NCBI GenBank assembly: GCA_009873635.1
Contig: WAHY01000006.1
Span: forward strand, 19,395-77,142
Length of the DNA: 57,748 nt
Direction: 5' to 3'
DNA from: Nitrospinota bacterium
Lineage (GTDB): Bacteria; Nitrospinota; Nitrospinia; Nitrospinales; VA-1
This document shows, piece by piece, positions 10,443 to 26,443 of this stretch; the first letter of the stretch is position 1, and the number at the start of each line of letters is the position of its first letter. A program made the position numbers and the translations under genes. Under the pieces are notes generated by a model, which did no database searches, was not told the origin of the DNA, and saw nothing but the letters and a program-made list of their open reading frames with translations.

Positions 10443-10859
10443 TTAATTTTTCAGAACATCATCTGTTTCCCGGGTTTCAGGCATTGGCGAGGCGTGGTGC
10501 ATGATCATTTTCCATGAATCACCCTCAAGGTAAAACAGGTTTGTAGCAAAAACTTTTGAGGCTGACACTCCTATTTCAGCTATGGTATACAGTTTTTCGA
10601 TACATGAAACCCATGCCAGATTTTCTGAAGCGATAACCTGCACATCAGAAATTTTTATTTCCATATTGCCTGAATTCTCAAAAATTCCCGCCCAACTATT
10701 CAACGTTGCCTCAAAACCTTTAAGAGGTGGCCACCCGGGATGAACACAAGTTGTGTTCAAATTATGCCCCCACACTTCTTTCATCGCTTCAATATCTCTA
10801 TTATTAAAAGCTTTATAAAAGTTTTCATTCGCAGACAAAACTCGATCTTCACTTATCAT
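10443..10859 (-). CDS. SnoaL-like/NTF2-fold protein
   Basis: A 138-residue protein of the nuclear-transport-factor-2 fold (SnoaL/DUF4440 type). It shows the typical early helix NENFYKAFNNRDIEAM, a WGHN and a HPGWPPLKG segment, a conserved W, and an end strand WKMIMHHASPMP. Many such proteins have no known enzymatic activity. It lies 20 bp downstream of ccmG on the same strand, so it is probably the last gene of the ccm operon, though its link to cytochrome c maturation is unclear. No signal peptide. Confidence 0.75.
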   Translation of the reverse strand: MISEDRVLSANENFYKAFNNRDIEAMKEVWGHNLNTTCVHPGWPPLKGFEATLNSWAGIFENSGNMEIKISDVQVIASENLAWVSCIEKLYTIAEIGVSASKVFATNLFYLEGDSWKMIMHHASPMPETRETDDVLKN

Positions 10860-10879: not shown

Positions 10880-11455
10880 TTATTGTTTTAAAAGGTGCTC
10901 AACGGCTCGGAAGGTTTCAGGCGACTCCCAGTTTTTAGCACCGTCAACACGAGCGACAACCCTCCCCAACTTATCAATTACATAGGTAAATGGAATGGTA
11001 AAAGATGGATAAAGTTTTTCAGCAACACCATTTATATCCAATAATATCGGGAATGATAATTTGTGTTTATCAACAAACTTTTGGACTTTATCAGAGTCTC
11101 CTTTATCAAGGCTGACTGCGAGAATGGTTAACCCTTCAGACCGGAAGCGGCGGTACAGGTTTTCAAAGCTGGGCATTTCCCTTACACAAGGAACACACCA
11201 GGTAGCCCAGAAATTAATGATAATCACTTTTCCAGAGTGATCGTCAAGTCCTTCCAGGTTACCCTTAAGGTTTCTTAAACTAAAACGTGGAGCAAGATAT
11301 CCTTCTTGCGGTTTAAACTGGTTTGCATCCGGGTTTTCCGTACCGGTTTTTTGGATACGGAGCACGAGCAGAGTCAGAGCCACAATTATAAGCAGGCCCA
11401 GAAGTACGTCCCTAGGACGAATAAAGCTTTTCCCTTTTGAGCCGGTCAATTTCAT
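10880..11455 (-). CDS. ccmG: Membrane-anchored thiol:disulfide oxidoreductase (CcmG/ResA/TlpA type)
   Basis: A 191-residue protein with an N-terminal membrane anchor (about 16-32) and a periplasmic thioredoxin fold holding the active site WATWCVPC (about 85-92) and a cis-proline near TIPFTYVIDK. In System I cytochrome c maturation, CcmG keeps the apocytochrome cysteines and CcmH reduced so heme can attach. It is the last ccm gene of the operon. Its ATG lies inside ccmC, overlapping by 44 bp, an unusually long overlap that suggests coupled translation; no better internal start exists before the membrane segment. Confidence 0.9.
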   Translation of the reverse strand: MKLTGSKGKSFIRPRDVLLGLLIIVALTLLVLRIQKTGTENPDANQFKPQEGYLAPRFSLRNLKGNLEGLDDHSGKVIIINFWATWCVPCVREMPSFENLYRRFRSEGLTILAVSLDKGDSDKVQKFVDKHKLSFPILLDINGVAEKLYPSFTIPFTYVIDKLGRVVARVDGAKNWESPETFRAVEHLLKQ

Positions 11456-12131
11456 CCTTTAGTTTTTCCTGCCGCACCCGCTCACCCATCAGCAGGAAAT
11501 AAAGCAGCGTGAAAGCACCCAGAGATATGCCCAGTGTTGCCAACATGCTCGGGTCCATGCCCTTACCAAGCCCTTCGCTGGAAATAACCTTGGGTTGAGG
11601 GTGGAATGTTCGCCACCATAATACAGAAAAATGGATAAAGGGGATATTTAGAAACCCAATAATACCAAGTACCGCCGCATAACGAGCCCTCATGGAACCG
11701 GCATCACTTTGTGCTCGAAGCATGAGGTATGCTACATAAATCAGCCAGAGTATCAGGGTAGATGTCAAACGTGCGTCCCACACCCACCATGCCCCCCAAA
11801 TTGGCCGCGCCCAAATCGGGCCTGTGATCAAAACCAGGGAACAGAAAACCACACCGATTCCTGCTGAGGCGTGAGCATAAATATCCCACTCCCTGTCCTT
11901 CTTCCACAAAAACAAAATCGAACAAATAAAAACCACAAAGAAAGCAAAAAATGAAAGCCATGCGCAAGGAACATGGAAGTACATGATGCGCTGGATCACT
12001 CCTTCTGTCTTTTCAGTAGGAACATATAAAAAAATCGAGACCATTGCCGCAAGAAGACCAATACCGGTCAACCAGACCAGAACATTTCCTTCCTCCTGGC
12101 TGTCTTCTACTTCTTCAGGGTTCATCTTCAT
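11412..12131 (-). CDS. ccmC: Heme transporter subunit CcmC
   Basis: A 239-residue six-span membrane protein with the tryptophan-rich heme-handling signature (WGAWWVWDARL, about 114-124), flanked by conserved periplasmic histidines HVPCAW and HFSVLWW. CcmC receives heme and loads it on CcmE with the help of CcmA, CcmB and CcmD. The start overlaps the ccmD stop as ATGA. The cytoplasmic C-terminus ends in a charged helix. Length is normal for CcmC; the identity is secure from the signature and operon position. Confidence 0.95.
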   Translation of the reverse strand: MKMNPEEVEDSQEEGNVLVWLTGIGLLAAMVSIFLYVPTEKTEGVIQRIMYFHVPCAWLSFFAFFVVFICSILFLWKKDREWDIYAHASAGIGVVFCSLVLITGPIWARPIWGAWWVWDARLTSTLILWLIYVAYLMLRAQSDAGSMRARYAAVLGIIGFLNIPFIHFSVLWWRTFHPQPKVISSEGLGKGMDPSMLATLGISLGAFTLLYFLLMGERVRQEKLKDEIDRLKREKLYSS

Positions 12132-12275: not shown

Positions 12276-12956
12276 TCACTCCTCCAGAATATGGTCAATC
12301 GTCATGATGGAGACACCAATATAAATGATATCGAAGGAAGCCGTCAAACCAATCCAGTTCATCATTTCCGATAAAGGTTCGCCAGCCAGAACTTGCCCGG
12401 TCATTCGAACCACTCCAATGACAACAGGAATCATTAACGGATAAAGTAAAATAGGCAACATGATTTCCCGCGTTTTCAGGTTTGAGGCTAACGAAGATAA
12501 CAGGGTACCCAGAGCGCAGAACCCGAGGGTACCCAGAAAAATTACAAGCAAGAGTGGTAATAAATGATCTATCAGGTCTATGTTAAAAAAAATCATGAAC
12601 AGCGGCATAATGAACAATTCCATAATGCTAAGGAAAGCAAAATTACTGACCAGTTTGCCAAAATAAACGGCCGTTCTATCTGCAGGTGTCAACATCAACC
12701 CCATGAGGCATCCATTTTCCTTTTCAAGCATGAAAGAACGATTCAGCCCCAAGGTTCCTGAAAATAAAAACGCCACCCACAAAACTCCGGGGCCAACCTC
12801 ACTGGCCTTAACAATGCTGAGGTTCACAGAAAAAATAAAAATCAAAATAACCAGCAACGCAAAAATGAACATTGAACTGAACAGTTCACGCGTCTTGAAT
12901 TCGGTCAGGAAATCTTTCCAGACTATAGATGAGACCTGACTGAAAAAAAGGTTCAT
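12276..12956 (-). CDS. ccmB: Heme exporter membrane subunit CcmB
   Basis: A 226-residue integral membrane protein with about six hydrophobic spans and the CcmB pattern: an early cytoplasmic W-K-D-F segment, NRSFMLEKENGC between spans two and three, and PLMIPVVIG near the fifth span. It forms the membrane part of the CcmAB ABC complex, which uses ATP hydrolysis to free holo-CcmE from CcmC. Located 15 bp after ccmA and 4 bp before ccmD, all on the minus strand. Confidence 0.92.
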   Translation of the reverse strand: MNLFFSQVSSIVWKDFLTEFKTRELFSSMFIFALLVILIFIFSVNLSIVKASEVGPGVLWVAFLFSGTLGLNRSFMLEKENGCLMGLMLTPADRTAVYFGKLVSNFAFLSIMELFIMPLFMIFFNIDLIDHLLPLLLVIFLGTLGFCALGTLLSSLASNLKTREIMLPILLYPLMIPVVIGVVRMTGQVLAGEPLSEMMNWIGLTASFDIIYIGVSIMTIDHILEE

Positions 12957-12971
12957 AAATTCATCCTTACA

Positions 12972-13730
12972 TCAATGAGGGCGAATTCCCATAGTAAACT
13001 GGTTATTACGAACTGCATCAAAATATAGAGTCTCAAAGTTTTCCCTATCAATATCTTTAACATCCTCAAAGAATGCAAACTGCCCCATAACCTGCAAGGC
13101 AACTTTATCGCACATTTCCAGGCCGCAGGAAATATCATGCGTAGTCATCAATATTGTCCTCTTCTTATCATGTAAAGACTGAAGGTGCTCCTTGAGCACA
13201 TTGGATGCGTGAATATCCAATCCAGTGAAAGGCTCATCTAAAAATAAAATGGAAGGATCATGTAGAATAGCCCTTGCGATGGACAGCCTCTGCAACATAC
13301 CGCGTGAAAAAGTTCTAACACGATCATTTCTGCGTGGAGCCAACCCTACATCCTCAAGAGCGTTCAAAGCTGATTCATGAGGACGTTCCACTCCATACAT
13401 CTTGCCAAAAAAAATCAAATTTTCCATTGGGGTCAAATCAGCATATAAAGCAGAAGAATGCGAAATAACACCTATCTCACGCCGCATCTCCGCCATCCCT
13501 TCTTCCACTTCATAACCAGCAACCCTCGCTGAGCCTGATGAAGGACGCGTTAATCCCGTTAGAATCTTAATAAGGGTGGTTTTTCCCGCGCCATTGGGAC
13601 CAAAAACAGATAAAAATTCCCCACGCTTCAGGTCAAAACTGATTCCATCTACAGCTTTTAAAACTCCAAACTCTTTACGCAACTGTCTAACTTCAATAGC
13701 GGAGGAATCGGGATTGGAATTATCTACCAT
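12972..13730 (-). CDS. ccmA: ABC transporter ATPase CcmA
   Basis: A 252-residue ATPase with Walker A GPNGAGKTT (about 44-52), signature FSRGMLQRL, Walker B ILFLDEPFTGLD and a switch histidine in TTHD. It provides ATP hydrolysis for release of heme-loaded CcmE. It is somewhat longer than the about 205-residue E. coli CcmA because of an N-terminal tail (MVDNSNPDSSAIE) and a C-terminal extension. No clear ribosome-binding site is visible. The direct neighbourhood of ccmB fixes the role. Confidence 0.88.
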   Translation of the reverse strand: MVDNSNPDSSAIEVRQLRKEFGVLKAVDGISFDLKRGEFLSVFGPNGAGKTTLIKILTGLTRPSSGSARVAGYEVEEGMAEMRREIGVISHSSALYADLTPMENLIFFGKMYGVERPHESALNALEDVGLAPRRNDRVRTFSRGMLQRLSIARAILHDPSILFLDEPFTGLDIHASNVLKEHLQSLHDKKRTILMTTHDISCGLEMCDKVALQVMGQFAFFEDVKDIDRENFETLYFDAVRNNQFTMGIRPH

Positions 13731-13760: not shown

Positions 13761-14087
13761 TTAATGGGATTTATGTGGCTTGCCTTTTTTTCGTTCCTTT
13801 TCCAATCGGTCCAGTTCCTCAAGTATTCCCGTTGCTTCAGCTTCAAGTCTATGTAGAAGCTCATTGTAATCGGGCTCTGAGATTTTTCCCGTATTGAAAT
13901 CGAACTCCAACTCTTTAATAGAAATAAGTGTTTCTTCCTTGCGAACCAATAGATGCTTATATTCATCCATCAAAGGGTCCACGGGTTCCATCAGCTTTTT
14001 GAGTCTCAACTTGCCAAAAAGAGGTATCCCCACAACAAGAAGGACCGCAACAATCGAAACCAACTCTAAGAAGTGGATGAATCCCAT
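13761..14087 (-). CDS. Small membrane protein with coiled coil, CcmI-like
   Basis: A 108-residue protein: one N-terminal membrane span (about 8-25), then a long charged coiled coil ending in a lysine-rich tail. This resembles the N-terminal membrane/coiled-coil part of CcmI (CycH), which brings apocytochrome to the heme ligation complex, but the TPR domain is missing. It lies 2 bp after ccmH. The assignment rests on topology and position; it might instead be a lineage-specific ccm accessory protein. Confidence 0.65.
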   Translation of the reverse strand: MGFIHFLELVSIVAVLLVVGIPLFGKLRLKKLMEPVDPLMDEYKHLLVRKEETLISIKELEFDFNTGKISEPDYNELLHRLEAEATGILEELDRLEKERKKGKPHKSH

Positions 14088-14089
14088 TC

Positions 14090-14566
14090 CTACAACTCGA
14101 TCCCGTCTAGTTCGTCTTTTAAACGTTTGGAATATTTTTTAGAAATTTCGGGTTCAGCCACAGGAGTCTCTATAGGACCATTATCGCCTTTTTTTCCTAC
14201 CCAGGCCTGAAGAATTTTACGAACTCCAAATCCTCCTGCAATCAAAGCTACAAACGGTGTCATCCAAGCTGTGAGGTTGAATCCGAATTTAGTAGGCGCG
14301 GATAATACTGTTTCGCCGTATTCATCCACCTGCATTTTTACTATTTGTTCAACGGTGAGACCTGATTCCAGCATTTTCGTAAACTTAGCACGGGTTTTAT
14401 CAGAAGTAGAACAAGTGCAGTTTATAAGAACTTTTCCACACTTGTCATCGCATTTGCACATGAGTTGGTTTTCAAGATCCTGCAACAAAGCTCCAGCTTC
14501 AAGCACCTGACCTGTTGAAAGCCATCCAAATACAAATAAAAATATTAACGCTTTTAAAACTTTCAT
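14090..14566 (-). CDS. ccmH: CcmH-type thiol oxidoreductase, multi-cysteine variant
   Basis: A 158-residue protein of the CcmH/CycL/NrfF family: signal peptide (about 1-24), then the active-site region. Classical CcmH has LRCxxC; here the same place reads LMCKCDDKC followed by a second pair INCTC, five cysteines in all. After it come the family's three-helix bundle and a C-terminal membrane span (about 108-124) with a cytoplasmic tail. CcmH reduces apocytochrome cysteines within the CcmFH ligation complex. It lies 4 bp after ccmF. The extra cysteines are seen directly; whether they change chemistry is unknown. Confidence 0.88.
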   Translation of the reverse strand: MKVLKALIFLFVFGWLSTGQVLEAGALLQDLENQLMCKCDDKCGKVLINCTCSTSDKTRAKFTKMLESGLTVEQIVKMQVDEYGETVLSAPTKFGFNLTAWMTPFVALIAGGFGVRKILQAWVGKKGDNGPIETPVAEPEISKKYSKRLKDELDGIEL

Positions 14567-14570
14567 CCGG

Positions 14571-16586
14571 TTACTCCTGCGCAGGAGAAGGGAACAACTG
14601 CTCCTGCCTGCGAATCCTGTCCAGGCGGCGTCTTTGTTCTAATCGATCCGGCCACATAGAGATCATCGTGCCAAAAGCTATAATCCATCCACCTGTCCAC
14701 ATCCAACTGACCATCGGATTCACATAAACTTTTATCGTTGCTGATTCATCTTCACGGAAATCCGCCAGAATCATATATAAATCTTCCTTCCAGGTTGAAA
14801 GGACATCCACTTCAGAAACCGGCTGGTTCTGTCCCTTATAAAATTCTTTTTCAGGATGGCCTGTCCAATACCGTCTTCCATCACGCTCTACAGCGAGTTG
14901 GGCAATAATTCGAGTCTTAACGTTTGTGGCTTCCACAGCAACCAGTTTTTGATACGTGATTTTATAACCCCTGATTTCAAAGGACTCCCCCAGTTGCAAA
15001 TGTTTTTCCGTGTGAGTTCCATAAGCCTGCGACCCCGCAATACCCGCAAAAATCAACACCACTCCTATATGGACAATATAACCCCCATAACGTCTCTTAT
15101 TGCGCCAAGTAGCCGTCGCCAAAGCGCCAACAACAGACTCCTCATGCAACCCCATTCTCGAAACCGTAACCTTGTAAAACTCGGCGAGGATAGAAGCCAT
15201 CACGAATACACAAAGTACAAAAGTCACATATGTATAAACCTCGGCTCGACTTTCCAAGGGGACAACCGGGAACAATACAATTGCCGCTACAATGGAGGCA
15301 AGCAAAGGTTTTAAAAAGTTTTTCTTCAGGTTGGAAAATGTTGCCCTTCTCCAGGCGATTACAGGCCCAATACCAATCAGCGCTAAAAGCGCAAGACCTA
15401 TGGGAACATTCACCTGGTTATAAAATGGCGGCCCCACCGTTATCTTCACACCCCGTACAGCTTCTGAAATGATCGGGAAAATAGTACCCCAAAATGTTGC
15501 AAAAGCAATTCCCAGCAAAACCAGATTGTTAAATAAAAAACTACTCTCTCGAGATAAAAAAGAATCCAGTTCATTCGCGCTTTTTAGAAGAGGTAGACGC
15601 GTAACGATCAAAGTAATACATGCCGCAATGACTACAAAAAGAAAAGCCAGAAAGTAATAACCAAGAGTCGCCTCATCAAATGTATGAACAGATTGAATGA
15701 GACCGCTACGAGTGATAAATGTTCCAAAAATTGTCATTGCAAAGGTTAAAAGGATTAAAGACATGTTCCAGACTTTCATCATGTCCTTTTTTTCCTGAAT
15801 CATCACCGAATGCAAATAGGCTGTGGCAATCAACAAAGGCATAAATGCTGCGTTCTCAACAGGGTCCCAGGCCCAGTATCCCCCCCAACCCAACTCAACA
15901 TAAGCCCAGGAAGCTCCGAACAAATTTCCCATGCAGAGAAAAAACCATGAGATCAGAGTCCACTTCCGTGTCATTCTAATCCAGCCATCATCCAGGTTTT
16001 TACTGATAAGAGCCGCAACGGCGAAAGCAAATGGAACCGTGAACCCGACATAGCCCAGGTACAAGGTCGGCGGGTGGATCACCATCCAATAGTTTTGCAG
16101 AAGTGGATTCAGGCCGCGCCCATCTTCGGGCGGCAGTGGAATACGCTCAAATGGATTGGTGGAAAAGTTTATCAGAAAAAGAAAGAACACTACTATGGCG
16201 AGCATAACCGCCATCGCATAGGGAACCACTCGCAGGTTTTTTCCCCGGTTTTGAAAATAAACCACGAGCATGTAGGTGGTAAGCAAGAGTGTCCAGAAAA
16301 GCAGGGAACCTTTCTGCCCTCCCCAGAATGAAGAAACTTTGTAAAACGTATCTAACTCGCGATTGGAATAAGCCCAGACATATTGGAGGCTGAAATCATC
16401 GGTTAGAAAAGCTTTCCACAAACATATAGATGAGATAGCTACGCAGGTCCAAACAATAAATGGAGTCTTATCCGCACTCAAATAAAGGTCGATACGGTTT
16501 CCTCGGGCGGACATGATGTAGGCAACACAACCATATAAAGCCGTTGCCAGGGCCACCAATAATGTAAACTCACCAATATCATTCAT
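14571..16586 (-). CDS. ccmF: Cytochrome c heme ligase CcmF
   Basis: A 671-residue multi-span membrane protein of the heme-handling family. The WGGYWAWDPVEN motif (about 235-246) is the WWD domain that binds heme from CcmE, and conserved histidines lie in NYWMVIHPP. About 14 hydrophobic spans and a large periplasmic domain near residues 540-625 match CcmF, which attaches heme to CxxCH of apocytochromes. Length is normal. It is the second gene of the operon, 62 bp after ccmE. Confidence 0.96.
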   Translation of the reverse strand: MNDIGEFTLLVALATALYGCVAYIMSARGNRIDLYLSADKTPFIVWTCVAISSICLWKAFLTDDFSLQYVWAYSNRELDTFYKVSSFWGGQKGSLLFWTLLLTTYMLVVYFQNRGKNLRVVPYAMAVMLAIVVFFLFLINFSTNPFERIPLPPEDGRGLNPLLQNYWMVIHPPTLYLGYVGFTVPFAFAVAALISKNLDDGWIRMTRKWTLISWFFLCMGNLFGASWAYVELGWGGYWAWDPVENAAFMPLLIATAYLHSVMIQEKKDMMKVWNMSLILLTFAMTIFGTFITRSGLIQSVHTFDEATLGYYFLAFLFVVIAACITLIVTRLPLLKSANELDSFLSRESSFLFNNLVLLGIAFATFWGTIFPIISEAVRGVKITVGPPFYNQVNVPIGLALLALIGIGPVIAWRRATFSNLKKNFLKPLLASIVAAIVLFPVVPLESRAEVYTYVTFVLCVFVMASILAEFYKVTVSRMGLHEESVVGALATATWRNKRRYGGYIVHIGVVLIFAGIAGSQAYGTHTEKHLQLGESFEIRGYKITYQKLVAVEATNVKTRIIAQLAVERDGRRYWTGHPEKEFYKGQNQPVSEVDVLSTWKEDLYMILADFREDESATIKVYVNPMVSWMWTGGWIIAFGTMISMWPDRLEQRRRLDRIRRQEQLFPSPAQE

Positions 16587-16648: not shown

Positions 16649-17140
16649 TTAGATTGTTGTTTTCGGCAAGGCTTCCGCTTTATTGATGCCCGGCCTTTTA
16701 TACTCGTCAGCTTTGGGGAGTGTACCCGGATGCATCTTTCCGGCCTCTTTTTCAGCTTCATATTTAGACGGGCAACTGGTCAATAAAGTGTTGGCGTGGA
16801 AAACACCATCCTTCCCTAAAGTTCCCTCGACCACCACCTCACCTCCATCAACAAACATATCCGGTGTCACCCCTTGATAAGCTACCTTCAACGAGGAATC
16901 ATTCTCCTCAATAGAAAAATTCACATTTAAATAATCATTAGGGTCCCTTTGAATTGAACCATTTACCACATTGCCTTTTACTTTTAATCCAGCACCGGTG
17001 AATGAAACTTTCTGGCTCATCAATTCGTCCACGGTAAAGAAATACTGCGAAGTATTACTGATTCCCATTGTTATCAAATATCCAATGGCTCCAACAATCA
17101 GCAAACTACCCACTAAAAATCTTGTTTTTTTCTGCTTCAT
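16649..17140 (-). CDS. ccmE: Periplasmic heme chaperone CcmE, CxxxY type
   Basis: A 163-residue CcmE: N-terminal membrane anchor (about 7-27) then an OB-fold. The classical heme-attaching motif HxxxY is here CxxxY (CPSKY, residues 123-127), following the strand and linker GVFHANTLLTS. Cysteine-type CcmE proteins are known from archaea and Desulfovibrio-like bacteria. It carries heme from CcmC to CcmF. Start is ambiguous: a GTG at 17149 with a GAGGG site three bases before it, or this ATG with spacing of 12. First gene of the ccm operon, with a good promoter about 55 bp upstream. Confidence 0.93.
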   Translation of the reverse strand: MKQKKTRFLVGSLLIVGAIGYLITMGISNTSQYFFTVDELMSQKVSFTGAGLKVKGNVVNGSIQRDPNDYLNVNFSIEENDSSLKVAYQGVTPDMFVDGGEVVVEGTLGKDGVFHANTLLTSCPSKYEAEKEAGKMHPGTLPKADEYKRPGINKAEALPKTTI

Positions 17141-17195
17141 AACCGGCACACACCCTCTGAGTTAAGAATATCATTAATTTATTGAGGCTTTTTTC

Positions 17196-17587: not shown

Positions 17588-17610
17588 AGTTTAAAAATTT
17601 GGTGAATGCA

Positions 17611-18003
17611 GTGTTAAACAACTTTCTAGGAACCTACAACATCAGTCTGGACGACAAGGGGCGGTTCAACGTGCCGGCGAAATTTCGCAGCGCGCTCGAA
17701 CAGTTTGGTCCGCAATTGGTGGTGTGTGTAATGGATCATTATCTAGTGGTCTTTCCTCAGAAAGAATGGTCCGAAAATGAGGCCAAGCTGAGCGACCTGA
17801 ACGCATTCGACAAGACCGACAGAAACCGATTACGGGAGTTTTATTCCAGGGCAACCGAGTGCGAAATGAAGTCTGGAAAGATACTGCTCCCTGCCAACCA
17901 GAGAGAGATTGCAGGATTAAACAAAGAGGCCATCTTGGTGGGAATGTCTAAAACCTTTGAGGTCTGGTCCCCAGAAGAATGGTCCAAGCAAGGGGAACAA
18001 TAG
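17611..18003 (+). CDS. mraZ: Transcriptional regulator MraZ
   Basis: A 130-residue MraZ with the two SpoVT/AbrB-like half domains. The first includes FLGTYNISLDDKGRFNVPAK, with the DxKGR motif, and the second repeats the pattern at ATECEMKSGKILLPANQRE. MraZ forms a ring that represses the dcw operon by binding repeats in its leader. Three in-frame non-ATG starts exist (TTG 17599, GTG 17602, GTG 17611). The last is preferred because the family begins close to FxGTY and GGTG lies about six bases upstream. First gene of the cluster, just behind the operator repeats. Confidence 0.9.
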   Translation: MLNNFLGTYNISLDDKGRFNVPAKFRSALEQFGPQLVVCVMDHYLVVFPQKEWSENEAKLSDLNAFDKTDRNRLREFYSRATECEMKSGKILLPANQREIAGLNKEAILVGMSKTFEVWSPEEWSKQGEQ

Positions 18004-18049
18004 TGGCCGCTCCATAGACATTAGCCAGCTATGGACTAGCCAAAACATC

Positions 18050-18988
18050 ATGCCAACGTACCACGAATCGGTAATGAAAAATGAAGTGCTTCATTACCTG
18101 AATGTTCACATGGAGGGTGTAATCGTGGATGGCACACTTGGGGATGGAGGCCATACGGAATTCATCCTGAAAAACACAGCGCCTGATATCCGGGTCTTTG
18201 CGATCGACCGGGACAAATCCGCTATAGAGCGGGCCAGTAAAAGACTATCTCCTTTCCGTGACAGGGTTACTCTAGTCCATGGCAACCTGGCAGACTTAAA
18301 AAAACTGGCAACCCAAAACGGGATCACCCGTGTGGTTGGGTTGTTGATGGATCTGGGAGTCTCTTCACCCCAGTTAGATTTACCCGGACGCGGCTTCAGC
18401 ATAAAAAATGATGGTCCTCTCGATATGCGAATGGACTCCTCCCAAAATACTACGGCCGCAGATCTTCTGGAAAATCTTTCTGACGCTGAACTGGCGTCCA
18501 TTATTAAAAATTATGGTGAAGAACGTTATTCAAAAAAGATTGTCCGGGCAATTCGCAAAGAACAGGCTGAGCGCCCAATAACCTCTACTGGCCAACTCTC
18601 ACAAATTGTTGCTCAAGTGGTCCCGGCACCAAGGCGCTCACGGATTCACCCTGCTACGAAAACTTTTCAAGCGCTGAGGATAACTGTCAATGATGAACTG
18701 GTGCAATTGAAAACTGTTCTGTCTGACATGATGGGTCTGCTTTGTTCGACAGCGCGTGTCGCAGTGATTTCGTTTCACTCTCTTGAAGACAGGATAGTGA
18801 AAACATTTTTCAGGGATCAGGAAAAAGGGTGTGAGTGCCCACCCAGGACCCCTATATGCATTTGTGGAAAAACGCAGAGCTTGAAGGTTTTAACCCGCAA
18901 ACCCATTGTGCCTTCTGATGAAGAGGTCGCGCGAAACCCAAGATCGATAAGTGCGAAATTAAGGGTCGCGGAAAGGGTTTATGTTTGA
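18050..18988 (+). CDS. rsmH: 16S rRNA (cytosine-1402 N4) methyltransferase
   Basis: A 312-residue SAM methyltransferase. Start at MPTYHESVM is the conserved family start. The SAM-binding loop is DGTLGDGGHTE (about 25-35) and the family motif DLGVSSPQLD (about 103-112) follows; near the C-terminus is SFHSLEDRIVK. It methylates C1402 of 16S rRNA in the decoding centre. The frame stays open 31 codons upstream but those residues are unlike the family. It overlaps ftsL by 8 bp. Confidence 0.95.
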   Translation: MPTYHESVMKNEVLHYLNVHMEGVIVDGTLGDGGHTEFILKNTAPDIRVFAIDRDKSAIERASKRLSPFRDRVTLVHGNLADLKKLATQNGITRVVGLLMDLGVSSPQLDLPGRGFSIKNDGPLDMRMDSSQNTTAADLLENLSDAELASIIKNYGEERYSKKIVRAIRKEQAERPITSTGQLSQIVAQVVPAPRRSRIHPATKTFQALRITVNDELVQLKTVLSDMMGLLCSTARVAVISFHSLEDRIVKTFFRDQEKGCECPPRTPICICGKTQSLKVLTRKPIVPSDEEVARNPRSISAKLRVAERVYV

Positions 18989-19298
18989 CGGAGTTCGAGG
19001 GCTGATAAAAGGCCGGCTCCATGTTACCTCAAAAGATTTCTGGGTGGTCATTTCCGTGTCCATCCTGTTCATGTTCGGAGCTCTGGCTCTGGTTTGGCCG
19101 AATATCAAAAAAATCAAACTGGCGTATGACTATCAGGATCTTGCAAAAGAACACGAGGAATTGTCCAGGGAGAATCAGTTGCTTAATCTTGAGCGTGAAA
19201 GCCTGAGGTCTTTGAACCGTATTTATCATTTAGCCAGAAACGAAGTGGGAATGAAAGAGCCTGATGAAGGCAATGAAATCACAATAATACTTAAATAG
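18981..19298 (+). CDS. ftsL: Cell division protein FtsL
   Basis: A 105-residue bitopic protein: a short cytoplasmic N-terminus, one membrane span (about 24-42), and a periplasmic coiled coil with leucine heptads (DLAKEHEELSRENQLLNLE) ending in a conserved acidic tail. This fits FtsL, which with FtsB and FtsQ activates the FtsWI septal synthase. FtsL sequences diverge widely, so the name depends on topology plus the fixed position between rsmH and ftsI. Its ATG overlaps the rsmH stop by 8 bp. Confidence 0.88.
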   Translation: MFDGVRGLIKGRLHVTSKDFWVVISVSILFMFGALALVWPNIKKIKLAYDYQDLAKEHEELSRENQLLNLERESLRSLNRIYHLARNEVGMKEPDEGNEITIILK

Positions 19299-19303
19299 CA
19301 AAC

Positions 19304-21049
19304 ATGGCAAAACACGGAAAACAGAATACCGGATCCTTTAAGGACGGAATCAAAACTCGTCTTATTATCGTCTCGGCATTGTTCTTTCTTGTCGTTGCCG
19401 CTTTGATAGTCCGGCTGGCCTCCCTGCAAATCCTTCAACATGAGACGTTGCTGGCAAAATCTGAAAAACAATACGTGGGAACGGTTGAAACTCAGTTTGG
19501 GCGTGGAGTGATCTACGATCGAAACTTGAATGAGCTGGCACAGAATATCGAAGTGGAATCTGTTTATGCCAATCCTTCTGAGATATTGAACCGAAAAGCC
19601 GCGGCCCGTGTGCTTTCTAAAACATTAAATTTGGATAGGAATAAGGTCTATAAAAAAATCTCCTCGAAAAGGGATTTTGTCTGGATCAAGCGTAAAGGTG
19701 ATCTTGAGGGAATTGCAAAACTAAAAGAAGCTGATCTGCAGGGGATAGGGTTTCTTCCAGAACAAAAAAGGTTTTATCCAAAACGTGAACTGGCGGCAAA
19801 TGTTCTTGGATTTGTCGGTGTGGACAATCAAGGGCTTGCTGGCGTGGAACACGCTCATCAATCCCGGCTCAAAGGCACCACGATTAGACGGGTTACCGAA
19901 CGTGATGCGAAGGGAAGAAGTATTCAGCCGCCTGAAAGTTTGCGCGATTCCAGTCGAAAAAGTTTTGATCTTGTTCTTACTCTCGATGAGGTCATTCAAT
20001 TCACCGCCGAATACCACTTAAAGAAACAGGTTGAACGTTTTAAGGCGGACTCGGGAATGGCCGTGGTTATGGACCCTCGCACTGGGGAAATTTATGCAAT
20101 GGCCAATGTGCCTCAGTTTAATCCTAACAACTACAGGGCGTTTTCCCAGCATATATGGAAAAACAATATTGTTGCGGGTTCCTACGAGCCGGGATCAATT
20201 TTCAAGCCCATCGTTGCAGCTGCCGCGCTCGATAAAGGGCTGGCCCGACCGCATGACATTTACTTTTGTGAAAACGGGAAGCTTAAAATTGGTAAAGCAA
20301 ATATAGGAGAAGCTTCAGACCATAAGTTCGGCTGGATGACCATGAGCGATATCATTGCGAAATCCAGCAATATTGGTGCAATAAAAATTGCCCAGCAGGT
20401 TGGGAAAAAACCTTTTTATGAGTACATCCGTAAATTTGGTTTTGGGGAGAAATCAGGGCTGTCTCTACCGGGTGAGTCGGCGGGGCAATTAAAAGATCAA
20501 AAAAACTGGAGCAACCTTTCTCTTGCTTCAATTTCTTTTGGCCATGAAATTGCTGTCACTCCCATTCAAATGGTCACCGCCATGTCGGCAATCGCCAATG
20601 GCGGAATGCTTATGGAACCTCATATCATAAAAGCGCTGATCAAAGACGGAGAGGTTGTGGAAAAATTCGGTCCGAGAAAAATTCGACGTGTCATCTCCAA
20701 AAAAACCAGCCTGCAAATGGTCGAAATTTTAAAGTCTGTGGTGAAAAATGGTACCGGGAAAAAAGCAGCATTGGACGGGTTTGATGTGGCAGGAAAAACT
20801 GGAACGGCTCAAAAATATAATATGGAGACCCGCTCTTATTCCAGCACAGAATTCATTTCCTCCTTCATTGGTTTTGTCCCGGCAGATTCTCCGAGACTGG
20901 TAATACTGGTGATGATTGACAACCCGAAAGGTTTGCATTGGGGGAGTGTTGTGTCGGCGCCAGTGTTTCAGAAAATAGCAAAAAAGGCGTTGCGTTATTT
21001 AGACATTACGTCAAGCAAAGAACGCGTTTTAATTCTTGATCGAGCCTGA
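19304..21049 (+). CDS. ftsI: Septal peptidoglycan transpeptidase (PBP3/FtsI)
   Basis: A 581-residue class B penicillin-binding protein. One N-terminal membrane span (about 22-45), a pedestal domain, then the transpeptidase domain with the catalytic serine S298 in EPGSIFKP (SxxK), the SxN motif in AKSSNIGA, and KTGT at 498-501. There is no PASTA repeat at the C-terminus, so it is the FtsI rather than the Spo VD/PBP2x type. It cross-links septal peptidoglycan with FtsW. The stop overlaps the murE start by one base. Confidence 0.95.
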   Translation: MAKHGKQNTGSFKDGIKTRLIIVSALFFLVVAALIVRLASLQILQHETLLAKSEKQYVGTVETQFGRGVIYDRNLNELAQNIEVESVYANPSEILNRKAAARVLSKTLNLDRNKVYKKISSKRDFVWIKRKGDLEGIAKLKEADLQGIGFLPEQKRFYPKRELAANVLGFVGVDNQGLAGVEHAHQSRLKGTTIRRVTERDAKGRSIQPPESLRDSSRKSFDLVLTLDEVIQFTAEYHLKKQVERFKADSGMAVVMDPRTGEIYAMANVPQFNPNNYRAFSQHIWKNNIVAGSYEPGSIFKPIVAAAALDKGLARPHDIYFCENGKLKIGKANIGEASDHKFGWMTMSDIIAKSSNIGAIKIAQQVGKKPFYEYIRKFGFGEKSGLSLPGESAGQLKDQKNWSNLSLASISFGHEIAVTPIQMVTAMSAIANGGMLMEPHIIKALIKDGEVVEKFGPRKIRRVISKKTSLQMVEILKSVVKNGTGKKAALDGFDVAGKTGTAQKYNMETRSYSSTEFISSFIGFVPADSPRLVILVMIDNPKGLHWGSVVSAPVFQKIAKKALRYLDITSSKERVLILDRA

Positions 21050-22611
21050 TGGAAACTACAAGTTCAACAAATTGGCTGGAGTATCCTGAAAATGGTTACC
21101 TTAACGTGACTAACAAAAATACACAAAAACTCTCGAGTTTGATCCTGGGATTGCCCGTCACCAATATTCTGGGAACCATGGACAGGGATATTCGAAATAT
21201 TGTCTACGACTCCAGAAATTCTGACGAGGACAGTCTGTTCGTTGCCATACATGGAGAAAATTGGGATGGTGGGCTATTCATAAAAGACGCTATCGCAAGA
21301 GGAGCGACTGCTTTCATCACCCAAACTTCTCTGGACTCTATTAATGGACTCAGCCTCGGCACGCGCGATGTAACAGCCTTGAGTGTTGAGGATTCTCGCC
21401 GAGCGCTTTCTATTATTAGCGCTAATTTTTATCGTCAACCCTCAGAGCGCATAGCTTTAACTGGTATCACTGGAACTAATGGAAAAACCACTACGGCTTA
21501 TATTCTGGAAGCTTTATTCAGCGCAAAAGGAATTCGCACGGGAGTTATTGGCACAATTAATTATCATTATGGAAATAAAAAACTCTCTGCGCCTGTAACC
21601 ACACCCGAATCTCTGGACCTGAATCGCATGTTGGCTGCAATGATCGAAGATAATGTTCAAAATTGTTTTCTTGAGGTTTCATCCCACGCTCTACACCAAA
21701 GCCGAGTTAATGACATGCTTTTCAAGGTTGGAATTTTCACGAATCTGAGTCGCGATCACCTGGATTTCCATGGCGACATGAAGAGCTATAAGGAAGCCAA
21801 GAAGAAATTATTTCTTGATAATCGCGTTCAACAAAAAATTTTCAATATAGACGATGCTGTGGGTCGAGAGTTTGCTGGCGAGTTTAAAACGGATTCTTTT
21901 ACTACGGGAATTGACGGCAATGCGGATTTCAAGGCTGAAAATATTTTACTGACAAAATCAGGTTGTCAATTCACTTTAAAAACACCCTTTGGGACTGGGG
22001 AGATCCGCTCCAATCTCCTTGGCCGGCACAATATCCACAACCTCATTTCCGCAGCGGCAGGTGCTATGGCTCAAGGTATTTCTTTGGAGGAAGTCCAGAA
22101 AGTTGCTTTAAACATCCAGCCTGTCCCGGGGCGGTTTGAAAGTATTGAAAACAATCAAGGGTTTTCGGTTCTGGTTGATTACGCGCACACTGATGACGCA
22201 CTTAAAAACGCAATTTCAGCAGCAAAATTGTTTACCGAGGGAAAAGTGATCGTCGTTTTCGGATGCGGGGGAGACAGAGACAAGGGAAAAAGGCAAACCA
22301 TGGGTCAGGCTGCTCTGAATGAAGCGGATTTTTCGGTCATTACTTCTGACAATCCTAGAACAGAAGATCCCTCTCAGATCATTGAGGATATCCTGCGAGG
22401 CATACCTGCTTCTGCTGTCGAAGGTAAAGATTATACCGCGATCACCAGTCGGAAAGAGGCTATTGAACATGCCATCGATATTGCCGGGGAAAATGATTTG
22501 GTTTTGATCGCCGGCAAGGGGCATGAGGACTATCAGATTCTGGGAACACAAACTATTCACTTTGATGACCGGGAAATCGCCCGTTCTGCTTTAGGAAAGA
22601 GAATTCATTGA
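21049..22611 (+). CDS. murE: UDP-MurNAc-tripeptide synthetase, meso-DAP adding
   Basis: A 520-residue Mur ligase. The P-loop is GITGTNGKTTT (about 138-148). SDNPRTEDP (near residue 433) is the DNPR motif that selects meso-diaminopimelate over lysine. SRDHLDFHG and DYAHTDDAL are other family motifs. It adds the third residue to the peptidoglycan stem peptide in the cytoplasm, implying a Gram-negative A1-gamma wall. The first ~30 residues are longer than usual; a GTG at 21106 is an alternative start. The chosen ATG overlaps the ftsI stop (TGATG). Confidence 0.95.
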   Translation: METTSSTNWLEYPENGYLNVTNKNTQKLSSLILGLPVTNILGTMDRDIRNIVYDSRNSDEDSLFVAIHGENWDGGLFIKDAIARGATAFITQTSLDSINGLSLGTRDVTALSVEDSRRALSIISANFYRQPSERIALTGITGTNGKTTTAYILEALFSAKGIRTGVIGTINYHYGNKKLSAPVTTPESLDLNRMLAAMIEDNVQNCFLEVSSHALHQSRVNDMLFKVGIFTNLSRDHLDFHGDMKSYKEAKKKLFLDNRVQQKIFNIDDAVGREFAGEFKTDSFTTGIDGNADFKAENILLTKSGCQFTLKTPFGTGEIRSNLLGRHNIHNLISAAAGAMAQGISLEEVQKVALNIQPVPGRFESIENNQGFSVLVDYAHTDDALKNAISAAKLFTEGKVIVVFGCGGDRDKGKRQTMGQAALNEADFSVITSDNPRTEDPSQIIEDILRGIPASAVEGKDYTAITSRKEAIEHAIDIAGENDLVLIAGKGHEDYQILGTQTIHFDDREIARSALGKRIH

Positions 22612-24011
22612 TGGAAGGTCAAGCTCAAGATTGCCTCAATGCTGTTGAAGGCCAGCCCTTGCAAGGAAAGCTCTCCAGTTCATTCAAGGGAGTTTCTATA
22701 AATTCCCGCACCGTATCAAAAGGTGAACTGTTTATTTGCATTAAAGGAGATCGGTTTGATGGTCATGATTTTCTGGCCGAAGTCATCGAAAAAAGAGCCG
22801 GGGGAATCATTCTCTCCAGCCCTGAGAAGTTGCCCGGCGCATCTTGCTCAAATGGAGAAGAGCCTTTTGTGATTCGCGTTCAGGATACGCTTAAAGCTCT
22901 GCAGGATTTGGCAACCTTCCAGAGAAAACGGTTTCCCTTTAAGGTTGTCGCCGTTACAGGAACAAATGGAAAGTCAACCACCAAAGAAATGATCGCTTCA
23001 ATTTTAGAAACCAAATTCAAAACGTTAAAGACAAAGGGAAACCTGAATAACCATATAGGGCTTCCCCTTTCTCTTCTTGAAAGAGAACCTTCTCATGAGA
23101 TGGGTGTTCTTGAGTTGGGGATGAGTGCCGCCGGGGAAATAAAAAAACTGGCCGAGATTTCCCAGCCTGATATCGGTGTGATCACTAACATTTCAGAAGG
23201 GCATCTGTTGAAGTTGAAAACTCTGAAAGATGTTCAGTCCGCAAAAGGTGAATTGTTTGACGCCCTGACAAAGGAAGGGACGGCCATTGTAAATGCTGAT
23301 GACCCTCTTGTATTCGAGCTGGCAAAATCGCTCCGCGCTAAGACTGTAACTTTCGGCATAGACCAGCCAGCCGATGTAAGAGCCAGCGAAATAGAAAGAA
23401 AGGACAACCTTGGATTCCAATTTAAGGTCAACCTTTTTGACAAAACTCTCTCAGTGAATCTCCCTTATCTGGGCTACTGCAATATTTATAACGCACTGGC
23501 CGCGCTGGCTACCGGTTATTCGTTAGGGATTCAGGAAGAAGATATGGCTAACGGACTTGAGAACTCTCAGCATATGTCTCAACGTAACGAACAATTGCGA
23601 CATAAGGAGATTGACCTGATTAACGATGCTTATAACGCCAATCCCAGATCCATGACCGAAGCCTTAAAGACACTGGATCATTTTAAAACCCGGGGACGGC
23701 GGATATTTGTAATCGGGGACATGCTGGAGCTTGGAGATCAGTCTGAAGTAGCGCATCAAAAATTAGGCGAAGAAATAGCACGGTCCCAAACAAATATTCT
23801 TATCACTGTAGGGAACCTTGCAAGCCTGTCTGCGGAAAGCGCGCGCTTGATAGCGAAGAAAAAAATTCATATTGAAGAATTCACCAGTCATCAGAAGGCA
23901 TCAGACTTCCTGGTTCAGGAAACGGTTGGTGGGGATTGCGTAATGTTCAAAGGTTCACGCGGTTCAGCTATGGAAAAAGTATTACAACTATTTTTGGAAA
24001 ATAAGAATTAA
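22611..24011 (+). CDS. murF: UDP-MurNAc-tripeptide D-Ala-D-Ala ligase
   Basis: A 466-residue Mur ligase with the P-loop VTGTNGKSTTK (about 118-128), the metal-binding segment LGMSAAGEIKKL, and the C-terminal motif NDAYNANPRSM (about 342-352) typical of MurF. It ligates D-Ala-D-Ala onto the tripeptide, finishing the cytoplasmic precursor. The ATG overlaps the murE stop by one base; the frame opens one codon upstream at a TTG, which is less likely. Three bases separate it from mraY. Confidence 0.95.
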   Translation: MEGQAQDCLNAVEGQPLQGKLSSSFKGVSINSRTVSKGELFICIKGDRFDGHDFLAEVIEKRAGGIILSSPEKLPGASCSNGEEPFVIRVQDTLKALQDLATFQRKRFPFKVVAVTGTNGKSTTKEMIASILETKFKTLKTKGNLNNHIGLPLSLLEREPSHEMGVLELGMSAAGEIKKLAEISQPDIGVITNISEGHLLKLKTLKDVQSAKGELFDALTKEGTAIVNADDPLVFELAKSLRAKTVTFGIDQPADVRASEIERKDNLGFQFKVNLFDKTLSVNLPYLGYCNIYNALAALATGYSLGIQEEDMANGLENSQHMSQRNEQLRHKEIDLINDAYNANPRSMTEALKTLDHFKTRGRRIFVIGDMLELGDQSEVAHQKLGEEIARSQTNILITVGNLASLSAESARLIAKKKIHIEEFTSHQKASDFLVQETVGGDCVMFKGSRGSAMEKVLQLFLENKN

Positions 24012-24014
24012 ACA

Positions 24015-25100
24015 ATGTTTTATCACTTTTTTTATCCGCTTAGTTCGGACTATTCGATATTCAATGTCTTCAAGTACATCACATTCCGGTCGGCTTATGC
24101 CGGAATCACGGCATTGGCTTTGAGCCTGATCCTGGGGAAATTGATGATAAGGACTTTGCAAAAACTTCAGATACGGGAAAAGATTCGCAGCGATGGCCCA
24201 CAACACCACAGCTCCAAATCTGGCACTCCAACAATGGGCGGTCTGCTAATCCTGGCTACCTTTATAGGTTCCACTCTGCTCTGGGCTGATTTGAGCAACT
24301 ATTATATCTGGGTTGTTGTCCTTACCGCTGTTGGGTTTGGCGCAATCGGGTTATGGGATGATTTCCTCAAGTTAAGAAAAGGGGATGGCATAACAGCAAA
24401 AGAAAAAATTTTTCTGCAAATACTGTTGAGCCTGGGTATTGGAGTTTATTTGCTGTATTTCGATCCTTCCCGTGCTGAATACGCAACGCTCTTGTCGGTT
24501 CCCTTTTTTAAAAGTTTCCAACCAGACCTTGGTTTTGCCTACCTGTTTTTTATCGTTTTCATTATTGTGGGCACCTCCAATGCGGTCAACCTGACAGACG
24601 GCCTTGATGGATTGGCTATCGGCCCCATTATTGTTGCCACATTCACTTACACCGGCATCGTTTATATTTCCGGTCATTTTAATTTCTCGGAATACTTGCG
24701 CATTCAGCACATTAAAGATGCGGGAGAGATTGCAGTCGCAAGCTCAGCAATCCTCGGTGCCAGCCTGGGTTTCCTTTGGTACAACTCATACCCTGCTCAA
24801 ATATTTATGGGGGATGTTGGGTCCTTGTCTTTGGGAGGGGTTCTTGGAACTATCGCAGTAATCGTAAAACATGAACTGCTTTTAATCCTCGTAGGTGGCA
24901 TTTTCGTGATTGAAGCTCTTTCTGTGATCATACAGGTAGGTTATTTCAAATACACAGGTGGAAAACGTTTTTTCAAAATGGCTCCTCTTCACCACCACTT
25001 TGAAGAGTTAGGGTGGTCGGAGCCCAAGGTCATAGTGCGGTTTTGGATAGTAGCCGTAGTGTTAGCCATGATTAGCCTCAGCACTTTGAAACTAAGGTAA
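24015..25100 (+). CDS. mraY: Phospho-MurNAc-pentapeptide translocase
   Basis: A 361-residue ten-span membrane enzyme that transfers phospho-MurNAc-pentapeptide to undecaprenyl phosphate, making lipid I. It shows the hallmark segments GTPTMGGLLI, GFIDD-like GLWDDFLKL, NAVNLTDGLDGLA and the metal-binding FMGDVGSLSLGG, ending with the substrate-binding HHHFEELGW (about 327-335). Length and motifs match E. coli MraY closely. The stop overlaps the next gene (murD) by one base. Confidence 0.97.
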   Translation: MFYHFFYPLSSDYSIFNVFKYITFRSAYAGITALALSLILGKLMIRTLQKLQIREKIRSDGPQHHSSKSGTPTMGGLLILATFIGSTLLWADLSNYYIWVVVLTAVGFGAIGLWDDFLKLRKGDGITAKEKIFLQILLSLGIGVYLLYFDPSRAEYATLLSVPFFKSFQPDLGFAYLFFIVFIIVGTSNAVNLTDGLDGLAIGPIIVATFTYTGIVYISGHFNFSEYLRIQHIKDAGEIAVASSAILGASLGFLWYNSYPAQIFMGDVGSLSLGGVLGTIAVIVKHELLLILVGGIFVIEALSVIIQVGYFKYTGGKRFFKMAPLHHHFEELGWSEPKVIVRFWIVAVVLAMISLSTLKLR

Positions 25101-26443
25101 TGATGGAACTCAAAAACAAAAAATTATCTGTAATAGGCCTTGGCCAAACGGGAGTTGCTGTAGCCAATTTTCTTTCCAGGCATGGCGCCAGTGTCACGGT
25201 GTCTGATGGAAAACCTCGCGAACAATTATTAGAACCATTGGAAAAACTATGCGCAGACATCAAGACCCGTTTCCAAAATCCTGAACCCCCTTCTGACACT
25301 GAAGGAGTGGTGCTAAGCCCGGGAGTGGATATTCATTCACCGTTTCTTCAGCAAGCTAGAAAGAAAGGAATCGAAATCATTAGCGAAATTGAGCTGGCAA
25401 ACAGATTTAATACTGTTCCTATTATTGCCATAACAGGAACCAATGGGAAATCTACTTGCACCAGCCTGACAGCTGAAATCATTTCGCAGGCAGGAGTGAA
25501 AGTGCAAGCCGGTGGAAATCTTGGAACGCCTTTTATTTCTTTGCTTGATCAAGGGGATGCAAACTACAGGGTTCTTGAGCTTTCCAGTTTTCAAATGGAA
25601 GCCACTTCAGGTCTTCATCCTGTTATATCCGTCATTCTCAACATAAGCCCTGACCATATGGACCGGCACAAGAATTTCGAAACCTATGTTGAGTTAAAGA
25701 AAAAAGTATTTGCCTGTCAAACTAAAGATGATTTTTTGATACTGAATCAGGATGATCCGAACACCCGTGATCTGGGAAAAGATTGCCCGGCAGAATGTAT
25801 TTTATTCAGCGCCCGGATTGAATTGAAAAAAGGTGTCTTTGTCCGCGGAAATAAAGTCATAGCCAGGCTTAATGATTGTGAAATAGAAGTGTTGTCCCTT
25901 GACTCTCTTTCTCAGGGAATGCAATGGCAAGTTGAAAACATCCTGCCCGCTATCGCTATAGCCTTACTTCTGAATATACCGAAGGATGCTATTGAACGGG
26001 CCTTGAAAAATTTCAAGAGTCTTGAGCATCGTTTGGAATGGGTCCGTACCCTGAACGGTGTTGATTTTGTCAATGATTCAAAGGGAACGAACGTGGGCTC
26101 TGTTTGCAAATCTTTAAATACCTTCGACCGCCCTATCATTCTCATCATTGGTGGAAAAGATAAGGGCACCGATTTTTCTCCGCTTAAAAACCTGATGAAG
26201 GAAAAGGTCAAGCACCTGGTTTTGATTGGAGAAACCCGGGACAAGTTTAAAGGAATTTTGAACGGAACCTTTTGTTACGAAGAAAGCAACAGCCTGGAAG
26301 AGGCTGTGGATATGGCCACAGCTAAAGCAGAAGATGGAGACATCGTGCTCCTTTCTCCTGCCTGTTCCAGCTTTGACATGTTTAAGAGCTACGCCGATCG
26401 TGGCACTCGTTTTAAAACTATCGTTAAAAATCTTGAAGGGTAG
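25100..26443 (+). CDS. murD: UDP-MurNAc-L-Ala:D-Glu ligase
   Basis: A 447-residue Mur ligase that adds D-glutamate to UDP-MurNAc-L-alanine. Rossmann-like start VIGLGQTGVAVANFL, P-loop AITGTNGKSTCT (about 111-122), ISPDHMDRHKNFE, and NDSKGTNVGS near 318 as expected for MurD. An extra ATG lies one codon further in; either start works. It follows mraY with a one-base overlap and is 6 bp before ftsW. Confidence 0.95.
   Translation: MMELKNKKLSVIGLGQTGVAVANFLSRHGASVTVSDGKPREQLLEPLEKLCADIKTRFQNPEPPSDTEGVVLSPGVDIHSPFLQQARKKGIEIISEIELANRFNTVPIIAITGTNGKSTCTSLTAEIISQAGVKVQAGGNLGTPFISLLDQGDANYRVLELSSFQMEATSGLHPVISVILNISPDHMDRHKNFETYVELKKKVFACQTKDDFLILNQDDPNTRDLGKDCPAECILFSARIELKKGVFVRGNKVIARLNDCEIEVLSLDSLSQGMQWQVENILPAIAIALLLNIPKDAIERALKNFKSLEHRLEWVRTLNGVDFVNDSKGTNVGSVCKSLNTFDRPIILIIGGKDKGTDFSPLKNLMKEKVKHLVLIGETRDKFKGILNGTFCYEESNSLEEAVDMATAKAEDGDIVLLSPACSSFDMFKSYADRGTRFKTIVKNLEG

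Follow-up and report, generated by a model that had tools for sequence, protein, structure and literature searches.

System I* of cytochrome c maturation was described from Desulfovibrio and archaea (Allen 2006 and Goddard 2010, as cited in the excerpts of PMC3601427 and PMC9084895 consulted here), and the absence of CcmH was its original criterion. According to the same excerpts of the 2011 review (FEBS J, PMC3601427), this absence is no longer counted as characteristic of systems with a cysteine-type CcmE, about one third of the bacteria with such a CcmE contain CcmH, and among the variants CPSKY occurs most often (25 of 36). We analyzed a 57,748-nucleotide stretch (the window) of contig WAHY01000006.1 from a Nitrospinota bacterium (assembly GCA_009873635.1), which encodes a cysteine-type CcmE among other ccm genes. 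We are highly confident that these genes form a normal System I operon whose CcmE is of the cysteine type known from System I* and which has retained CcmH. A first-pass annotation of the window had presented the pairing of this CcmE with CcmH as unusual, a view refuted by both the 2011 review and our own genome surveys, which rule out rarity. The combination is ordinary, as it is commonly found in bacteria and has been in print since 2011, and this settles the question that the annotation had raised. None of the 25 papers listed, out of 229 that matched Nitrospina together with CcmE or CcmH, contains the word Nitrospina, and CPSKY occurs in two papers, one of which is relevant.

The heme-site residue of CcmE

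The ccmE gene lies on the minus strand in a frame that runs from a GTG codon at 17149 to 16649, with an alternative ATG at 17140, while the plus strand of 16649-17140 contains several stops. The CcmE domain makes up the C-terminal part of the encoded protein and was recognised by the Pfam CcmE family with an E value of 3.4e-28 (98.3 bits, cut-off 24.6). Alignment with solved chains placed the CPSKY cysteine opposite the heme-binding histidine of Escherichia coli CcmE (8ce8_E and 1sr3) and opposite the cysteine of Desulfovibrio vulgaris CcmE (2kct), which confirmed the earlier proposal that a cysteine (C123 from the ATG) replaces this histidine. The C-x-x-x-Y motif of System I* thus occupies the heme-binding position. 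An AlphaFold model built from a 28-row alignment (mean predicted local distance difference test, pLDDT, 85.1) has a single N-terminal helix ahead of a core rich in strands, and CcmE ranked first when this model was compared with solved structures (E. coli 8ce8_E, 3.3e-8; D. vulgaris 2kct, 4.4e-4). This is the single CcmE match in the whole assembly (2.62 Mb, 54 contigs). CPSKY is not a chance reading, since it is found in all 68 CcmE-bearing Nitrospinota genomes that we surveyed. Separately, genome G102 (locus L219, contig C571) carries an extra CcmE copy with SPSKY, which has serine at the heme-binding position.

CcmH in genomes with cysteine-type CcmE

Across 77 Nitrospinota genomes, CcmE was found in 68, CcmH in 68 and both in 67, with the CcmH match above the cut-off in 66 of these and below it in one (G002). 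The sole genome with CcmE only (G029) has this gene on a 7.5-kb contig that ends shortly after it, leaving the following genes out. A further genome (G044) encodes an additional HDENY CcmE and a plain CcmH (LRCLVCQN; loci L002 and L112) on a contig (C159) that is separate from the CPSKY copy and may be foreign.

Beyond this phylum, we examined an even draw of 50 Acidobacteriota genomes with its centre (completeness of at least 90 requested) and an even draw of 61 Chloroflexota genomes with its centre. CcmE was present in 35 Acidobacteriota genomes, as the cysteine type in 32 and the histidine type in three, and these were accompanied by CcmH in 22/32 and 3/3 cases, respectively. In Chloroflexota, CcmE was found in 43 genomes (29 cysteine, 13 histidine and one unreadable), with CcmH in 19/29 and 13/13; G206 was excluded from the residue count, as its CcmE match runs into a contig edge and does not reach the motif. 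According to the first-pass annotation, the pairing would be ordinary if most cysteine-type CcmE proteins came with CcmH, and this was the case both in Nitrospinota (67/68) and in the two even draws combined (41/61). A third set was assembled by CcmF similarity, for which 50 of 65 distinct non-Nitrospinota loci were searched. CcmE was detected in 49, each with a cysteine copy, and CcmH in 31 of these (30 above the cut-off), a proportion that is biased upwards because the 15 omitted loci had no CcmH in the local stretch; it would be 31/64 if all 15 were cysteine-type and lacked CcmH. Two genomes (G080 and G096) are common to this set and the even draws.

The draws also allowed the CcmE residue to be compared with the form of CcmH. 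All 16 histidine-type genomes have CcmH, and, as judged by eye, the stretch printed for each contains a plain CxxC and no additional cysteine, whereas 20 of the 61 cysteine-type genomes have no CcmH. Also by eye, a plain CxxC was seen in 11 of the 19 CcmH proteins from cysteine-type Chloroflexota and in none of the 22 from Acidobacteriota, while six more of the Chloroflexota proteins have CxxC plus two further cysteines. These 11 and six proteins rule out a strict covariation between the CcmE residue and the CcmH motif. Overall, the other forms seen with cysteine-type CcmE were CxxC with further cysteines, cysteine-rich and PCC.

A one-way association, in which histidine-type CcmE is always found with CcmH (16/16 versus 41/61), gave a Fisher p of 0.008 for genomes that are not independent. 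To take account of relatedness, a CcmE tree of 85 rows was built without the motif, including 8 of the 68 Nitrospinota genomes. This tree is poorly resolved, with few columns, and requires at least three changes between histidine and cysteine and eight changes in CcmH presence, with one independent histidine/cysteine pair on supported branches and three on all branches. With only about three changes and one such pair, the association is not supported and falls as an established result once relatedness counts. In addition, one of the 16 histidine-type genomes (G150, HDENY) may represent a transferred or foreign stretch. It is a tentative and rather doubtful proposal that histidine-type CcmE requires an intact plain-CxxC CcmH and that the cysteine type frees the system, with CcmH being lost repeatedly or drifting to CxC..C..CxC or PCC forms as in Nitrospinota. 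The histidine/plain-CxxC pattern is a lead and not established; if it held more widely, the requirement for CcmH in cytochrome c maturation would be linked to how heme is bonded to CcmE.

Operon content and order

The nine genes are encoded on the minus strand in the order ccmE, ccmF, ccmH, a gene for a 108-residue CcmI-like protein, ccmA, ccmB, ccmD, ccmC and a resA/ccmG-like gene (Table 1), so that CcmA, B, C, D, E and F, which together define System I, are all present in the window. Profile matches bear out the earlier identification of CcmF, CcmA, CcmB, CcmC, CcmD-like and CcmH-like proteins alongside CcmE, where the CcmD search was run on the protein minus its first residue. The CcmI-like protein is a partial case: its position and an N-terminal membrane stretch (by eye) agree with this label, but it had no family match in Pfam or NCBIfam at an E value of 0.01 and has no tetratricopeptide repeat (TPR) domain after the membrane part. 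The WGGYWAWDPVENAAF stretch of CcmF and the WGAWWVWDARLT stretch of CcmC are what we take to be WWD-type motifs.

Table 1. Features of the ccm locus (window coordinates)
Feature	Position	Strand	Basis
ccmE, heme chaperone, cysteine type (LLTSCPSKYEA)	16649..17149	-	Pfam CcmE, solved-chain alignment, model
Codon of presumed heme-binding cysteine (C123 from ATG, C126 from GTG)	16772..16774	-	Position from frame
ccmF, heme lyase, with WGGYWAWDPVENAAF	14571..16586	-	CcmF_C 2.5e-66; TIGR00353 475.3 bits (below cut-off 569.05)
ccmH-like, helical	14090..14566	-	PF03918 49.4 bits (cut-off 25); first fold matches 2hl7, 2kw0
Five-cysteine motif CKCDDKCGKVLINCTC of the CcmH-like protein, replacing plain LRCxxCQ	14411..14458	-	Position from frame
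108-residue protein in CcmI position, no TPR part	13761..14087	-	Place in operon
ccmA, ATP-binding cassette (ABC) ATPase	12972..13730	-	TIGR01189 136.6 bits (cut-off 131.6)
ccmB, ABC membrane subunit	12276..12956	-	PF03379 105.4 bits (cut-off 24.9); TIGR01190 57.5 bits (cut-off 156.2)
ccmD, 47 residues	12128..12271	-	TIGR04391 32.9 bits (cut-off 24)
ccmC, with WGAWWVWDARLT	11412..12131	-	PF01578 123.2 bits (cut-off 29.9); TIGR01191 163.4 bits (cut-off 186)
ResA/CcmG-like thioredoxin with WCVPC	10880..11455	-	Sequence, Pfam and NCBIfam

Over CcmF, the window matches Nitrospina sp. LS_NOB at 93% and Nitrospinaceae OFTM91 at 94%, and these named relatives place the window, which comes from a marine bacterium, in the nitrite-oxidising Nitrospina group. 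Eleven of 14 Nitrospinota loci (L032-L045) have the E-F-H-I-A-B-D-C-G order; two others (L037 and L043) are stretches too short to judge, and the more distant L044 has ccmEFHI without adjoining ccmABDC in an 18-kb locus. Since the cluster is not fixed everywhere, as L044 shows, and at least three changes of the heme-site residue fall on the best CcmE tree, the window operon could be imagined as a rare hybrid, either a histidine-type operon with a recently cysteine-converted CcmE or one assembled by gene transfer. We give this almost no credence, given the conserved order, the ubiquity of CPSKY and near-ubiquity of CcmH in CcmE-bearing Nitrospinota, and the grouping of the eight Nitrospinota rows together (support 92) among cysteine-type rows. 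A recent or patched operon is ruled out by the presence of this arrangement throughout Nitrospinota.

Elsewhere in the window, a small SnoaL-like protein (PF13474) is encoded at 10443-10859 on the minus strand, immediately following the resA/ccmG-like gene. Divergent from the ccm operon, the plus strand at 17599-26443 carries a cluster for division and the cell wall (mraZ, rsmH, ftsL-like, ftsI-like, murE, murF, mraY and murD, assigned by eye).

Proposed pathway and comparison with known systems

In a normal System I operon with a cysteine-type CcmE and CcmH, CcmABCD would load heme onto CcmE, where it would be bound via the CPSKY cysteine, and CcmE would pass it to CcmF. The thiols of the apocytochrome would be maintained in reduced form and presented by CcmH together with the small CcmI-like protein and the ResA/CcmG-like thioredoxin, the last of these probably fed by a DsbD-type protein encoded elsewhere in the genome; a profile search yielded one DsbD-type match in the assembly. 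The heme attachment step is modelled on Desulfovibrio desulfuricans, whose CcmE binds heme covalently, and Methanosarcina acetivorans, in which heme attachment and stability depend on C120 of CcmE (both in the excerpts of PMC9084895 and PMC3601427). By analogy, the CcmE of the window organism probably carries heme through this cysteine and not through a histidine while cytochromes are being built. A search of the 54 contigs gave no match to ResB, which rules out a back-up System II in the assembly, and Ccm is therefore probably the only c-type cytochrome maturation system.

Several observations weigh against this interpretation. The assembly is 95% complete, such that an unseen second maturation system is possible, and D. 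vulgaris CcmE was reported to bind heme non-covalently (excerpt of PMC3884852). The NCBIfam models for CcmE, CcmF, CcmB and CcmC all score under their own cut-offs. The remaining points concern the CcmH-like protein, the only CcmH match in the assembly, which has 158 residues and, by eye, a membrane stretch at either terminus. A plain redox CxxC (LRCxxCQ) is absent, so that the protein may have an altered redox role or none; no solved chain matches the protein by sequence; and the top two Foldseek matches of its AlphaFold model (30-row alignment, mean pLDDT 84.0) are CcmH domains with weak scores (Pseudomonas aeruginosa 2hl7, E 0.28, probability 0.97; E. coli 2kw0, E 0.48).

It is accordingly conceivable that this protein is no longer a redox CcmH and has another job at CcmF, such as metal binding by its CxC-x3-C-x6-CxC cysteines. 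Among the rows printed, most of those from Nitrospinota and from myxobacteria/deltaproteobacteria and many from Acidobacteriota show comparable cysteine-rich forms. We consider another job of this kind improbable, as the protein scores above the Pfam cut-off for PF03918, CcmH structures rank first in the fold search, and the gene adjoins ccmF and is fused to it elsewhere. For the three-helix CcmH fold, the leading matches come from the right family but score weakly. CcmF and CcmH share one reading frame, apparently as a natural fusion, in 20 genomes of the cysteine-type set: 16 are myxobacterial/deltaproteobacterial or Acidobacteria records from the set found via CcmF similarity, and the others are G072 of Nitrospinota and G139, G153 and G164, which are further Acidobacteriota (all 20 at loci L049, L052, L054, L063, L064, L067-L073, L075, L076, L078, L082, L123, L270, L272 and L275). 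These fusions indicate that CcmH most likely continues to act in the lyase step in cysteine-type systems, and we infer that the window CcmH works despite its altered cysteines. As a separate observation, APCC or SPCC replaces CxxC in CcmH-like proteins of Nitrospinota, Acidobacteriota and one Kofleriaceae genome (L125, L133, L150, L164, L258-L260 and L271).

Compared with System I*, the window CcmE shares CPSKY, the commonest published form, but the locus departs from the original description in having CcmH, and it also encodes a CcmI-like protein and a thioredoxin of the CcmG/ResA kind. With the classical System I of E. coli (CcmABCDEFGH), the window shares the full gene set, the CcmE fold and the CcmH family, whereas its CcmE has cysteine in place of histidine, its CcmH has five cysteines instead of a plain LRCxxCQ, and its CcmI-like protein is without the TPR part.
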